Notes under the pieces: generated by a model | Database searches by the model: none | Seen by the model: the letters and a program-made list of their open reading frames with translations, nothing else | What the model was told of the DNA's origin: nothing | In this document: positions 14,460 through 21,358 of the stretch, one piece after another | Position numbering within the stretch: the first letter of the stretch is position 1 | Layout of the letters: each line of letters opens with the position of its first letter | Source of the DNA: Sulfurisphaera ohwakuensis | GTDB taxonomy: Archaea > Thermoproteota > Thermoprotei_A > Sulfolobales > Sulfolobaceae | Assembly: GCF_009729055.1 (NCBI RefSeq) | Contig: NZ_CP045484.1 | Span: 1,674,001 to 1,738,000 of the forward strand | Length of the DNA stretch: 64,000 nt | Direction: 5' to 3' | Translations under genes and position numbers: made by a program

Positions 14460-15032
14460 TTAAACTAGCCATCTTAACAGACCTTCTTCATTCACTTTAT
14501 CATATAAGTCCCAAATACTATTTGGTATTTCAATTTCCCTAGTTATAACACTTTTTATGAATATAAATTTGAATCCTCGTTTGCTTCTCACTATTTTTAT
14601 TATAGAATGTGCAGTATGAGATCCAAATATTGAACCTTCTCTTTCTCTATCTAAAAAACTGAACAGAAACTTTCTCCCCTTCCCCTTTCTTATAGCTGCA
14701 ACAATTCTAGTGTATTCCTTTTTGTGATGATAAGGATCAATTATTATAAGATCATCATCTCCCATAGATTCAATAGTTAGTGGTACGTCCTCAGCCTTAA
14801 ATGCTCTTCTTATATAAACTTCCTCTTCATTAGAAAATATCCTTTGGAAACGTTTTACTAAATAAGGATCTAACCCTCCCCTTTCTGATACAACTACTAC
14901 ATAGACCGGAGAGGAAAGAGCAATTACCCTATGATAAAATATCCTTAGTAACTCTTCATCTGGAGAAAAGAACTCTACAATTTGATCCTTTTCTATTATT
15001 TCGTCTAAAAATGCAAAACCAGTTCTCAACAT
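14460..15032 (-). CDS. RecA/RadA-superfamily-like protein without Walker A, third gene of the dpo2 operon
   Basis: 190 residues. The start (TGFAFLDEIIEKDQIVEFF) reads like the N-terminal strand-helix of archaeal RadA paralogues (TGxxxLDxxL...xGxIxEFxG), but the P-loop GxxGxGKT is missing (FSPDEELL at that position). A Walker-B-like strand DDLIIIDPYH remains. It overlaps the polymerase gene by 7 bases, so it is translated with it. In Sulfolobus the dpo2 operon is known to be induced by DNA damage; this protein is therefore probably a structural partner in that response. Nucleotide binding is doubtful. Confidence 0.72.
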   Translation of the reverse strand: MLRTGFAFLDEIIEKDQIVEFFSPDEELLRIFYHRVIALSSPVYVVVVSERGGLDPYLVKRFQRIFSNEEEVYIRRAFKAEDVPLTIESMGDDDLIIIDPYHHKKEYTRIVAAIRKGKGRKFLFSFLDREREGSIFGSHTAHSIIKIVRSKRGFKFIFIKSVITREIEIPNSIWDLYDKVNEEGLLRWLV

Positions 15033-16648
15033 TTAATCGCCTTGGTTAAATCATCAAATATCCTTTCTAGGTATGCCTTATAGTAGTCAACATCTTTACC
15101 CTTAAATCCTTCCCTAGCATCATAAAAACCTTTTATTCCCCTAACATATGGAACGTCCTTGATCCAAATAACATAATCGGCTGGCTCACCGTTAATTACT
15201 CTTCTTTTATAATAGTCCAAAAGTTCCTTAATTTTCTTTACACTTGCTTTGACTTCATTACAGTCTTTAGTCTTTGAAAGAATTTCAAGGGAATCGTTTA
15301 GGAAGGACTTCACAATGTTAGGCATATTACTCCTTATGAGTCCTTTAGCGATAATCTCTCCATCCTCCCTATTTGCTATATATCTTGTTGGATAAGGCAT
15401 ATTATCTTTAGTGGTTGTAAAGATAACCCACTTAAACTTCTTGTAATCTAACTTTAAACCGGTTTCTTTTTCTACGGTTTCAACTAGTTTCGAAACGTCT
15501 CCCTTAACTATTAAAGAATCAATTATACCGTGAAGTACTTCAATTCCCAAACTTTCAGCTATCTCAATTGTTTTCCTTAACGTTTTTCTAGCAAAATAAG
15601 TAACCATCTCATACGCTTCTATCTTACCAAACTTAGAGTTCCTATACCCTAGATAGCCAAAAGAGGCCACTAAAATCCATTTTATTGCTTCTGCTCTCTC
15701 TTCATCAATTTTCTTTAGCTCTTCTTTTCTCCTTATAAGCCATTCTAAAGCTTCTGGCACAATACCCCTTTCTTTAAGACAAATTGAATGCAACTCTGTC
15801 TTTATGTCATCACAAGTGTCAACAGTTTCAGCGGATATGTTATATTTTATAATCAGAGAAGGATACATTGATTTAAAATCTATTTGGTAAACGTCCTCAT
15901 AACAACCGGGTTTAGGGAATATAAACAAACCTCCCTTATCTGCTCTCATTATATCTTCTAATTTTCTTAATTTCTCTATTCTAGGAACAACATTTGGTAT
16001 TATGATTTTCTTCTTTAAAGCTACCCACGCTTCATTCGTTGTTAACGCTTTTCCAATAGTTGCATAAGCAATTTCGTGCAATGGTGTTTTAGATACATAA
16101 GACCACTCAAGAAGTCCCTTTATAGATACTGGTGACCTTTTCATCTCTCCTTGAACCTTAACTTGAGCTTTAATCTTGTTACAAGGAAAACCATAACATT
16201 CTACAACATCAGCTTCAAAGTCATCTAAATCATAAACTCTTTCGCCATTTATTTCGTAACAATCTGTACACCCATCATACCATCTAAGGAATTTTACCGT
16301 AGCATAATTAACTTTCTCTACTCTATCTACTAAAGGAATTTTCAGTCTATACAGTGTTTGTGCTAGTACTGTTGGTATCTCGTTGACTACTTTTAACCTT
16401 TTCTTTATGTAATAGTAAGCGTTAAAGCTTTCGACCTCAAATCTGTAAAGCTCAACTTCTTTACCATCTAGGCTCTTCCATTTTTCTTTCTCATAGTATT
16501 TCACCTCAGGATGTTGAAGAACAATGTCTGGATTATCAGTTATTACATAGACTGGGAAAGTTGTCTTTACGAATTCAGTTCTAAAATCGTTTAGCAGAAG
16601 TTTTACTCCTCCTTTTGTTGGATAAGCGTCAAGTACAATTTCTTCCAT
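15026..16648 (-). CDS. dpo2: Family B DNA polymerase, Dpo2 (PolB2) type
   Basis: 540 residues, much shorter than Dpo1 (about 880) because it lacks a recognisable 3'-5' exonuclease. Motif A: DFKSMYPSLI at about 257-266. Motif B region: ILVASFGYLGYRNSKFGKIE at about 325-344, with Lys lost from the usual KxxxNSxYG. Motif C: HGIIDSL at about 373-379 instead of YxDTDS, so only one of the two metal-binding Asp remains. Four Cys near 127-156 (CTDC, CYGFPC) could bind metal. Such changes are known for the crenarchaeal PolB2 family, reported as weak but damage-induced. Middle gene of a three-gene operon. Confidence 0.88.
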   Translation of the reverse strand: MEEIVLDAYPTKGGVKLLLNDFRTEFVKTTFPVYVITDNPDIVLQHPEVKYYEKEKWKSLDGKEVELYRFEVESFNAYYYIKKRLKVVNEIPTVLAQTLYRLKIPLVDRVEKVNYATVKFLRWYDGCTDCYEINGERVYDLDDFEADVVECYGFPCNKIKAQVKVQGEMKRSPVSIKGLLEWSYVSKTPLHEIAYATIGKALTTNEAWVALKKKIIIPNVVPRIEKLRKLEDIMRADKGGLFIFPKPGCYEDVYQIDFKSMYPSLIIKYNISAETVDTCDDIKTELHSICLKERGIVPEALEWLIRRKEELKKIDEERAEAIKWILVASFGYLGYRNSKFGKIEAYEMVTYFARKTLRKTIEIAESLGIEVLHGIIDSLIVKGDVSKLVETVEKETGLKLDYKKFKWVIFTTTKDNMPYPTRYIANREDGEIIAKGLIRSNMPNIVKSFLNDSLEILSKTKDCNEVKASVKKIKELLDYYKRRVINGEPADYVIWIKDVPYVRGIKGFYDAREGFKGKDVDYYKAYLERIFDDLTKAIKC

Positions 16649-16869
16649 TTTTCACACTCCTCCGCTAAAGCCCAAATAAATGTGAAATACACTAGATTAT
16701 AGGGATCTACAAATTCGTCATAAGAAGCGCTTTGGATGTATCTAACTTTCTTTCTTACTTCCTCAAGAAGTGACTCTAATGAAGGGGAATGTAAACGTGA
16801 AATGATCTTTTCTACTGTTTCCAGCTCCTTATCTACAGCCCTAGTGTAAGAGGGTTGTGTTCTTCCCAT
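16603..16869 (-). CDS. Small protein heading the dpo2 operon
   Basis: 88 residues, helical, charged; no known domain. Its 3' end overlaps the dpo2 start by 46 bases in another frame, an unusually long overlap that makes translational coupling likely. ATG 16869 lies about 27 bases after a TATA-like stretch, so the operon message is probably leaderless. Equivalent small genes precede dpo2 in other Sulfolobales (from memory), so it is probably an accessory subunit. Confidence 0.75.
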   Translation of the reverse strand: MGRTQPSYTRAVDKELETVEKIISRLHSPSLESLLEEVRKKVRYIQSASYDEFVDPYNLVYFTFIWALAEECEKWKKLYLTLIQQKEE

Positions 16870-19833: not shown

Positions 19834-20727
19834 TTAAACACCGATCGATCCTTTATTTAAATTTAGTAATTTACACATTTCATTTATTTTTTCTCTAATT
19901 TCTCCTTTAGATATTCTATCTACTTCTTTCGAAAGTTTAATTTCCCACGTTTCACTTTCATAGCTAGAATGTAACATTATCCACGCATTGATCATTGATC
20001 TATTAACCCAGTCTCTTAGATCTATATCATAAGGATATCCAGTTTTTTCTAGGAAAGACAATAAATTGTCGATCTCTTCTTCAGTAGCTCTTTTGGCATT
20101 CCAACTAATTTTCCTTTCTCCCACATACCTTTCACCCTTCCCTGGTATAATTACTAAACCATTAGCACCCTTAACACGATACGTTGCTGTGTCAACACTA
20201 TCAGCATTAAAGAAAATTTTTCTCATGTAAGGTGAGCCAGCACCTAAAACGTGGATCTTCTTAACGGATTTTCTGACATAATGGTATAAGTATATTACTA
20301 TTTTTCTCCCTCCCTTTAGTGATGGAGGAACTATACCGCCAAATGCTATTACATCTACATATTGGGAATAAAAATCGATAGCCTTATCAATGTCTTCAAC
20401 ATTATATCCGTGAACAACTGGAATTACGTTTATCTCTTTCTCATAAAGATATTCAAAGTGTTTAAAGTTTCTCTCATCAACCCTCTCACAAGGAAATGAG
20501 GGAATGTCAAGATTAATATACGCATCAGCAGTTAACGTTCTATATTTCTTTTCTAGCATCTCTGGGCTTAACGGAATTCCCTTTTTCATTATCTGATAAC
20601 CACCGCTATCTACCCACGTTTTATTATTCCAGAGTACACTATCCCACCTAAGCTGATTAATCATAACTGGCGTGTGAAATTCCCATACTGGGACCTTCAA
20701 GTCTTGTACTCCAAGAAAAATTTCCAT
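19834..20727 (-). CDS. tRNA-guanine transglycosylase-superfamily protein, short and zinc-less
   Basis: 297 residues with a TIM-barrel pattern of base-exchange enzymes. WVDSGGYQ at about 38-45 matches the DSGGFQ substrate motif of TGT; VLGAGSPY and DSVDTATYR (about 165-185) match the region of the catalytic Asp (LGVGTPE...DCVLPTR). The CxCxxC...H zinc site of queuosine/archaeosine TGTs is absent, and the length is about half of archaeal ArcTGT. The DSVD pattern is closer to DpdA-like enzymes that insert 7-deazaguanine into DNA. Divergent to a stand-alone ArcS-like domain. Substrate, tRNA or DNA, is open. Confidence 0.75.
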   Translation of the reverse strand: MEIFLGVQDLKVPVWEFHTPVMINQLRWDSVLWNNKTWVDSGGYQIMKKGIPLSPEMLEKKYRTLTADAYINLDIPSFPCERVDERNFKHFEYLYEKEINVIPVVHGYNVEDIDKAIDFYSQYVDVIAFGGIVPPSLKGGRKIVIYLYHYVRKSVKKIHVLGAGSPYMRKIFFNADSVDTATYRVKGANGLVIIPGKGERYVGERKISWNAKRATEEEIDNLLSFLEKTGYPYDIDLRDWVNRSMINAWIMLHSSYESETWEIKLSKEVDRISKGEIREKINEMCKLLNLNKGSIGV

Positions 20728-20803
20728 GAAAATATTTTGATCATACCAGGTTTATAGGTATTACTAAAAAGAGATTATTAAATATCCCGGCGTATTTTTT
20801 AAT
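20728..20803. promoter_or_regulatory. Divergent promoter of the transglycosylase and ArcS-like genes
   Basis: 76 bases separate the two starts. On the plus strand a TATA-like stretch (TTATTAAATAT, about 20774-20784) lies about 25 bases before ATG 20804, so that gene is probably leaderless. The shared spacer means the two could be co-regulated. Confidence 0.45.
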
Positions 20804-21358
20804 ATGCAATGTCCTCCTCTTCACGGAGAAAGAATAATTAAAAGAGAAGGAGAGGATCCTTTTAAACATCCAGTAGTTAGAAAATGGTATGAAATTCTTC
20901 TTAGTGAATGGAAATCTACAAAACCTTACGCTATTCTTCTTCCTTGTACCTCTATAAAGCCATATCACTTATCAAGAACACATAAGTTAGCTTATGCTAT
21001 AATGAGAGGATTTGAGGAAAAAGTACAGTTTTATTCCGTATCAGAGCCAATGTTACTAGTGCCAAGGGAATATGAGGATTGTTACCCGTTTAACTCTTAC
21101 GATTATCCACCATCGATGATGACGAAGGAAGAAAGGGAAGAATTTGTTGAATTATTAGCAAAAGTTCTTATAAATGTTAGAAATATGCATTCTTACATCA
21201 TAGGAATATTGCCAAAACATCACTATAGTGTAGTAAAAGAAGCTTCAGAAATTAGTGGAATTAATATTAACCTATATCCTTATGGAAGGTTACCATTTAA
21301 AACTATTTCTGAAGTATTAAATAATTTGAAAGAAATGATGAAAGCCCGCCACACTTAA
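20804..21358 (+). CDS. Stand-alone ArcS/DUF5591-like domain protein
   Basis: 184 residues. ILLPCTSIKPYHLSRTHK is the signature of the DUF5591 domain (PCSxxKPYSxSxSH) found at the C-terminus of archaeosine synthase ArcS and related TGT-family proteins. Here the domain is alone, without a catalytic TGT fold or PUA domain. Its divergent neighbour supplies a TGT fold, so the two look like a split pair. The domain takes part in 7-cyano-7-deazaguanine chemistry on tRNA in ArcS; the role here is inference. Confidence 0.75.
   Translation: MQCPPLHGERIIKREGEDPFKHPVVRKWYEILLSEWKSTKPYAILLPCTSIKPYHLSRTHKLAYAIMRGFEEKVQFYSVSEPMLLVPREYEDCYPFNSYDYPPSMMTKEEREEFVELLAKVLINVRNMHSYIIGILPKHHYSVVKEASEISGININLYPYGRLPFKTISEVLNNLKEMMKARHT

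Follow-up and report, generated by a model that had tools for sequence, protein, structure and literature searches.

Which nucleic acid is served by a short protein of the tRNA-guanine transglycosylase (TGT) superfamily that is encoded back to back with a lone ArcS-type domain? The question is raised by two divergent genes in a 64,000-nucleotide stretch (the window) of the Sulfurisphaera ohwakuensis genome, a single contig of 2.80 Mb. An earlier interpretation of the window made from the letters alone (the sequence-only reading) correctly described the genes as divergent (in our analysis their open reading frames, ORFs, lie on the minus and plus strands 76 bp apart) and suggested a split, reduced 7-deazaguanine system acting on tRNA or, as DpdA does, on DNA. 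By combining genome comparison with structure prediction, we find that the two genes are probably the modification half of a 7-deazaguanine-based system by which archaea would modify and restrict DNA. Beyond the view of the sequence-only reading, the pair belongs with genes for HerA, a putative AAA+ ATPase, a small ORF and NurA, and archaeal viruses carry the same genes. The two genes and their motifs are located as follows (our own numbers for genomes begin with G and for loci with L).

19834..20727, minus strand: short transglycosylase without the zinc motif, phage-DpdA-like, 297 amino acids (aa); identified by a PHROG match, profile and hhalign comparisons with phage 9g DpdA, an AlphaFold model and fold alignments
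20596..20613, minus strand: DSGGYQ, residues 39-44 (position computed), invariant in 49/49 sequences; D39 aligns with what we take to be the general-acid aspartate of TGTs
20413..20415, minus strand: H105 in PVVHGY, invariant, aligned to the PCFH stretch of phage 9g DpdA
20179..20205, minus strand: DSVDTATYR, residues 175-183, invariant in 49/49 and aligned with the host's own ArcTGT and 9g DpdA; D178 aligns with what is presumably the TGT nucleophile
20804..21358, plus strand: lone DUF5591 (ArcS-type) domain protein, 184 aa (PF17884)
20942..20965, plus strand: PCTSIKPY, residues 47-54, with P47, C48, K52, P53 and S57 invariant in 25/25 rows; presumably part of the ArcS signature PC-x3-KPY-x2-S-x2-H

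Both motifs on which the TGT assignment was originally based are present, and the assignment is borne out by structure: among the top 50 rows, solved TGTs match the AlphaFold model of the first protein (mean pLDDT 91.7) across 240-256 residues with Z 18.6-20.4, and ArcTGT 1iq8 matches it with Z 20.3 and a root-mean-square deviation of 3.0 over 250 residues, in the TIM-barrel TGT fold. Residues D39, D73, H105, H158 and D178 are invariant in all 49 aligned family members. Keeping the TGT nucleophile and general-acid aspartates, the protein looks like an active base-exchange enzyme; these are the two residues that the N-terminal domain of ArcS has presumably lost, and the notion of a split ArcS is thus not quite right. 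The same residues bear on the idea that the protein modifies or binds another protein. In type IV CBASS, a partner with an N-terminal 7-deazaguanine is bound by Cap10, which has the TGT fold. The fold search does list Cap10 (9ntn, E 9.5e-7), and TGT-fold and QueC-like proteins have been repurposed in immunity according to the accessible text of PMC11996544, but the invariance of both catalytic aspartates fits base exchange, and we consider such a function very improbable.

The absence of the CxCxxC zinc site and of PUA parts is likewise real: the motif occurs in none of 72 distinct family sequences, as against CSCPIC at residue 275 of the host's own 491-aa ArcTGT, and the 297 residues hold no PUA domain. 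The protein is indeed shorter than the host ArcTGT, "half-size" amounting to ~60% of its length, and the short zinc-less form is no oddity, being common to phage 9g DpdA (317 aa, no CxCxxC), which our family profile finds at 4.2e-12. In hhalign the transglycosylase aligns to 9g DpdA over 231 columns (1.8e-11), with the catalytic motifs in register and H196 of the phage enzyme opposite H158, and to the host ArcTGT over 165 columns (1.1e-7). The divergence from the phage enzyme is large (23% identity), and 9g, unlike the window pair, has its own preQ0 genes; we know of no HerA-NurA module for 9g DpdA. Neither the Pfam TGT model nor the NCBIfam bacterial DpdA model NF041059 matches the protein at E<=1, and it scores 13.8 bits with the curated ArcTGT model TIGR00432, which requires 350. 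The PHROG match is to phrog_887 (queuine tRNA-ribosyltransferase, E 2.1e-38), and a viral structure library returns a rudivirus SBRV1 protein first (TM 0.83), followed by several phage TGT-like proteins including that of Vibrio phage nt-1. The transglycosylase thus forms a small, separate branch which, among the enzymes compared, stands closest to phage DpdA in sequence.

The second protein had been described as the lone PCSxxKPY domain of ArcS. It is a lone DUF5591 domain (69.5 bits; cut-off 26), although its motif reads PCTSIKPY rather than PCSxx; the pattern PC[TS]xxKPY fits most aligned rows. The protein matches the corresponding stretch of the ArcS model NF040592 with 70.3 bits and does not reach the score of 440 for full-length ArcS. 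Its AlphaFold model (pLDDT 92.2) matches AF0587 (2q07) with Z 14.0. It thus shares with ArcS the PF17884 domain, the PC-x3-KPY motif and the AF0587 fold match, and differs from ArcS in consisting of a single domain. A uracil-DNA-glycosylase-like fold was set aside, the resemblance to SMUG1 (Foldseek E 0.01, Z ~6) being too weak. The host genome holds one DUF5591 gene.

The sequence-only reading had asked for a full ArcTGT elsewhere in the genome, and there is one (G000:C1:196421, 257 bits), as well as a 466-aa frame with a QueC domain, which matches Gat-QueC in size. Because both lie apart from the pair, the two genes are probably not tRNA archaeosine machinery, and the ordinary tRNA branch was rejected; a second QueC, in a frame of ~205 aa, is not distributed in step with the system. 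A second RNA system, in which the TGT would act at another position of tRNA or rRNA and the DUF5591 protein would finish the base, is also unlikely. The fold is that of tRNA TGTs, in structure nearer to ArcTGT than to bacterial DpdA, and ArcS, which contains DUF5591, is a tRNA enzyme; yet the transglycosylase has neither the PUA domain nor the zinc motif, ArcTGT and the Gat-QueC-sized protein are present separately, the sequence is nearer to phage 9g DpdA than to the host ArcTGT, and the genes are recurrently linked to those of a DNA translocase and a nuclease. A reduced, split 7-deazaguanine system of DpdA type fits the evidence, with DNA better supported than tRNA, and we infer with good confidence that DNA is the substrate of the pair.

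In the Sulfolobaceae genera g3 and g5, the genes for TGT, DUF5591, HerA, a protein of ~1,010 aa, an ORF of ~230 aa and NurA follow one another on a single strand. Such a contiguous cluster is found in 9 of the 18 TGT-bearing Sulfolobaceae genomes (G005, G014, G016, G021, G022, G024, G044, G045 and G046; the small ORF before NurA was checked in those other than G044-G046). The other nine (G000-G003, G006, G007, G011, G015 and G019) carry the HerA-ATPase-NurA block apart from the TGT, at distances from ~21 kb (G007) to ~1.3 Mb (G001) or on a different contig (G006, G015). The block of the window's genome lies at G000:C1:612242-618320, ~1.08 Mb from the pair, and encodes HerA (527 aa), the ATPase (960 aa), the small ORF (214 aa) and NurA (328 aa), one of six NurA matches at five places in this genome. 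HerA and NurA match PF01935 and PF09376, respectively, over the Pfam cut-offs. The large protein matches no Pfam family over cut-off and gives weak matches only against the PDB (best E 0.026, mostly coiled coils); because Walker-type motifs are invariant in 15/15 sequences (D62 W63 G64, G66 K67; I110 D111 E112), it is by inference an AAA+ ATPase. The small ORF encodes a partly coiled-coil product, and between those of L166, L168, L172 and L173 and that of L054 no similarity could be detected. Among the partner proteins of L054, neither Mre11 nor Rad50 was matched. That the pair is linked to the HerA-ATPase-NurA genes we regard as very likely.

The census of 31 Sulfolobaceae genomes disposes of the pair as an oddity of the window, and places TGT and ATPase in the same 18 genomes and neither in the remaining 13, with 5 of 11 genera carrying them (TGT matches above 400 bits are counted, which leaves out ArcTGT and the G043 fragment discussed below). 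Of the 25 family genomes covered by the DUF5591 search (in G043-G046 one locus each was read), 15 have both TGT and DUF5591 and 10 have neither, a pairing far beyond chance. Where the two genes share a strand, 15 of the 16 pairs measured, which come from Sulfolobaceae, STSV viruses and a Njordarchaeon, have frames with an overlap of 17-47 bp; the two genomes of g9, whose genes are 184 bp and ~1.5 kb apart, are outside this set. On an ArcTGT tree of 26 of the 31 genomes, the distribution of TGT and ATPase needs four changes (3-4 over bootstrap trees; the starred branches force two, and the deep forks are weak), and the TGT of one g5 genome groups with those of g4 (99/96). A stop-interrupted, weak ATPase match in G023 (3.4e-5) appeared in one search and not in the census search.

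Viruses carry the first one or two of these genes. In STSV1, STSV2 and STSV4, TGT and DUF5591 overlap by 23 bp near the thymidylate synthase gene thyX, and a DNA methylase is encoded close by in STSV1 and STSV2; STSV1 DNA is reportedly modified in an unusual way. The SIRVs, SBRV1 and SRV have a TGT match without a DUF5591 match. Among 42 rudivirus capsid records, which like the other virus counts include GenBank/RefSeq duplicates, 30 have a TGT match, and the other 12 are ARV1, ARV2, ARV3, MRV1, SMRV1 and SSRV1 with two records each. The ATPase and the system's NurA match no record of the phage collection, and its HerA weakly matches three bacteriophage records. A plasmid search with the TGT gave three distant matches, one being a TGT-like stretch of Oscillatoria plasmid NC_019763 (249751-250377) that is annotated as a GNAT acetyltransferase and is reminiscent of GNAT-TGT fusions in BREX-Related Capture (BRC). 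In the TGT tree the rudivirus copies form one clade (100/100) and the STSV copies another (100/100) among chromosomal copies, in a poorly resolved part from which it cannot be read which way the genes passed between STSV and chromosomes. The separate rudivirus clade, the presence of both genes in STSV and the unfixed direction would suit two viral genes that chromosomes have domesticated and that have no connection to HerA-NurA, but the exact co-occurrence of TGT and ATPase across the 31 genomes and a Njordarchaeon that carries the pair together with HerA and NurA make such an origin highly doubtful.

Related arrangements are found outside Sulfolobaceae. In the Njordarchaeota locus L102, HerA is followed by TGT and DUF5591 (47-bp overlap) and, 13 bp further, by a convergent NurA; Desulfurococcales L099 has the order TGT, DUF5591, NurA, HerA; and in L084, on the same contig as L109, TGT is divergent from HerA, NurA, a PAPS-reductase-like gene and DUF5591. 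DUF5591 lies near NurA and HerA in Pyrodictiaceae L078; TGT, DUF5591 and HerA share a single strand in L224; HerA adjoins TGT in Thermoproteaceae (L105, L110) and Caldivirga (L112-L114); HerA and/or NurA flank TGT or DUF5591 at L127; and genus g9 (L058, L062) has a further NurA directly downstream of TGT. The HerA/NurA neighbours are confirmed by Pfam at L099, L102, L084/L109, L078, L105 and L114, and found with our own profiles, built partly from loci that they then counted, at L110, L112, L113, L127 and L224. For rough comparison, the surroundings of 13 other lone DUF5591 genes (L225-L237, stretches of 18-19 kb in most cases) gave one weak HerA match. Among 300 genomes of the phylum, TGT (E<1e-30) was found in 50, a lone DUF5591 (open frame of at most 300 aa) in 25, and both in 20 where 4.2 are expected, as tallied by eye from lists that did not include every match-free genome.

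Some of these loci have further neighbours. PAPS-reductase-like PP-loop proteins (L084:4554-5444, L101:3470-4333, L068:68-880) stand beside TGT or DUF5591 in two archaeal loci, that of L084 being also BrxP-, SspD- and DndC-like; in rudivirus SBRV1, a gene annotated as PAPS reductase lies four genes away from the TGT, and the two searched genomes of the L084 family (G027, G037) gave no QueC match. At L095:8948-11569 the TGT adjoins a ribonucleotide reductase gene, and a radical-SAM protein that has an HMPTM-type zinc ribbon is encoded nearby; frames of 867-880 aa like that of L095 flank TGT in L072, L090, L092 and L094.

In the mechanism that we propose, the small DpdA-type transglycosylase would replace guanine in DNA with preQ0 from the host archaeosine pathway, and the DUF5591 protein would act on the nitrile of the preQ0 now in the DNA, yielding 2'-deoxyarchaeosine (an amidine), an amine or an amino-acid adduct and so fixing the mark. 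The HerA translocase, the AAA+ ATPase, the small protein and the NurA nuclease would then sense and degrade unmarked DNA; a restriction activity of this kind seems to us somewhat better than an even prospect. For the TGT and DUF5591 of STSV and the TGT of most rudiviruses, protection of viral DNA would be the simplest view. A restriction-modification-like reading with viral counter-defence is preferred because the DpdA-nearest enzyme, the ArcS domain, the translocase and the nuclease are gained and lost together, and viruses hold the first one or two only. The complete scenario, in which the chromosomal DNA of archaea including Sulfolobaceae bears a 7-deazaguanine mark completed by a lone ArcS domain, HerA-AAA+-NurA destroys unmarked DNA, and the marking enzymes of STSV and rudiviruses serve as anti-restriction, is tentative, its chances lying a little below even; the named base and the protective role of the viral copies are likewise putative.

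The pair might also mark chromosomal DNA for a repair- or replication-associated HerA-ATPase-NurA machine that reads the mark with no restriction of foreign DNA. The canonical HerA-NurA is an end-resection pair (accessible text of PMC4351679) with the same two families, presence in Sulfolobaceae is all-or-none by genus, as in vertically kept genes, and TGT lies beside ribonucleotide reductase in L095. The NurA of the system is one of several and has genes for an AAA+ ATPase and a small ORF linked to it. However, the several concerted gains or losses, the grouping of a g5 TGT with g4, and viruses with the modification half only all fit a conflict better, so that we judge the repair alternative to be rather unlikely.

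A number of observations weigh against the modification-restriction proposal. The family phrog_887 may include the archaeal-virus proteins themselves, in which case its match is not independent; Foldseek puts ArcTGT and tRNA TGTs (2.2e-9) ahead of the solved bacterial DpdA 7ui4 (1.1e-5), and a PDB profile search ranks ArcTGT (6.6e-6) before this DNA-guanine transglycosylase (3.1e-4). The window's genus and g4 keep the two halves of the system far apart. G043 has an intact DUF5591 beside a 70-aa TGT fragment and no ATPase (L223:5296-6052); it may be a decayed transferred copy, its start resembling that of G007. The sampled genomes are related, so that Fisher values overstate independence and the co-occurrence of 20 versus 4.2 is inflated; moreover, 30 of the 50 TGT genomes of the phylum have no lone DUF5591, including 14/14 TGT carriers in f20 and 13/14 in f29. 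Of 42 fetched loci, with many contigs short, 10 have a HerA-like and 4 a NurA-like frame, neither being seen at the fetched Ignisphaera, Pyrobaculum and Pyrodictiaceae TGT loci, and a search of 16 order-level genomes from outside Sulfolobaceae gave no ATPase. No TGT match is seen in Saccharolobus solfataricus rod-shaped virus 1, though the S. islandicus rudiviruses have one. DpdA-only phages had no (Orion) or very little (7-11) modification according to the accessible text of PMC6884629. RaSEA (TIGR01210), the partner of ArcS in Thermococcus, is over the curated cut-off in none of the 31 Sulfolobaceae genomes, with one weak match in G007, while the control search gave 3/14 genomes over cut-off; and Thermococcus ArcS transfers no lysine without RaSEA (PMC11298593, accessible text). 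The same source gives the preQ0 nucleoside as the minimum substrate of Thermococcus ArcS and NH4+, Asn or Gln as substrates used by the Methanocaldococcus enzyme; given these data, it is plausible that the DUF5591 protein would work on preQ0 outside tRNA and without RaSEA.

Published systems that come near the proposal include the bacterial dpd cluster (DpdA-K), which combines TGT-family DNA base exchange with a restriction part (PMC12839542, accessible text); here DUF5591 and HerA-ATPase-NurA occupy the place of DpdB, DpdC and the dpd restriction genes. A PADLOC scan gave no match named dpd, the presence of dpd models in its library being unconfirmed. BRC likewise pairs a TGT with a HerA/FtsK translocase in a setting of defence, but it rests on PglZ and also includes DUF6079, a STAND NTPase and DUF4007 (PMC12839542), none of which is matched in Pfam at E<=0.5 by the four L054 partner proteins, the ATPase staying unclassified. 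The words NurA and DUF5591 are absent from the main text of that paper as accessible. Deletion of dpdA abolishes DNA modification in phage CAjan (Hutinet 2019, PMC6884629), whose accessible text already includes 12 Ligamenvirales and 2 Bicaudaviridae in its set of viruses and mentions neither the chromosomal pair nor DUF5591; what is new is the gene context, namely the linkage with HerA, the ATPase, the small ORF and NurA. The top matches of an open-access full-text literature search, whose scope excludes most subscription papers, hold no TGT linked to HerA-NurA in Sulfolobales; PMC10855626 has one mention each of HerA, NurA and 7-deazaguanine in its accessible text.

If correct, the proposal would establish DNA marking by base replacement, with restriction, in an archaeal family that has genetically tractable laboratory strains, as a chromosomal counterpart of bacterial dpd that differs from it in finishing enzyme and in effector. 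The queuine tRNA-ribosyltransferase genes of the model archaeal viruses SIRV and STSV, so far unexplained, would gain a clear function, DUF5591 would have a role outside tRNA, and the additional HerA and NurA genes seen in thermophilic archaea would in part be given one as well.

A link of the pair to its other neighbours in the window was dropped, since among the 40 most widespread neighbour families TGT and DUF5591 alone include the window. Elsewhere in the window, ORFs of 190 and 88 aa, with no Pfam family over cut-off, flank on the same strand a gene for a 540-aa PolB-family polymerase (PF00136) at 14460-16869.

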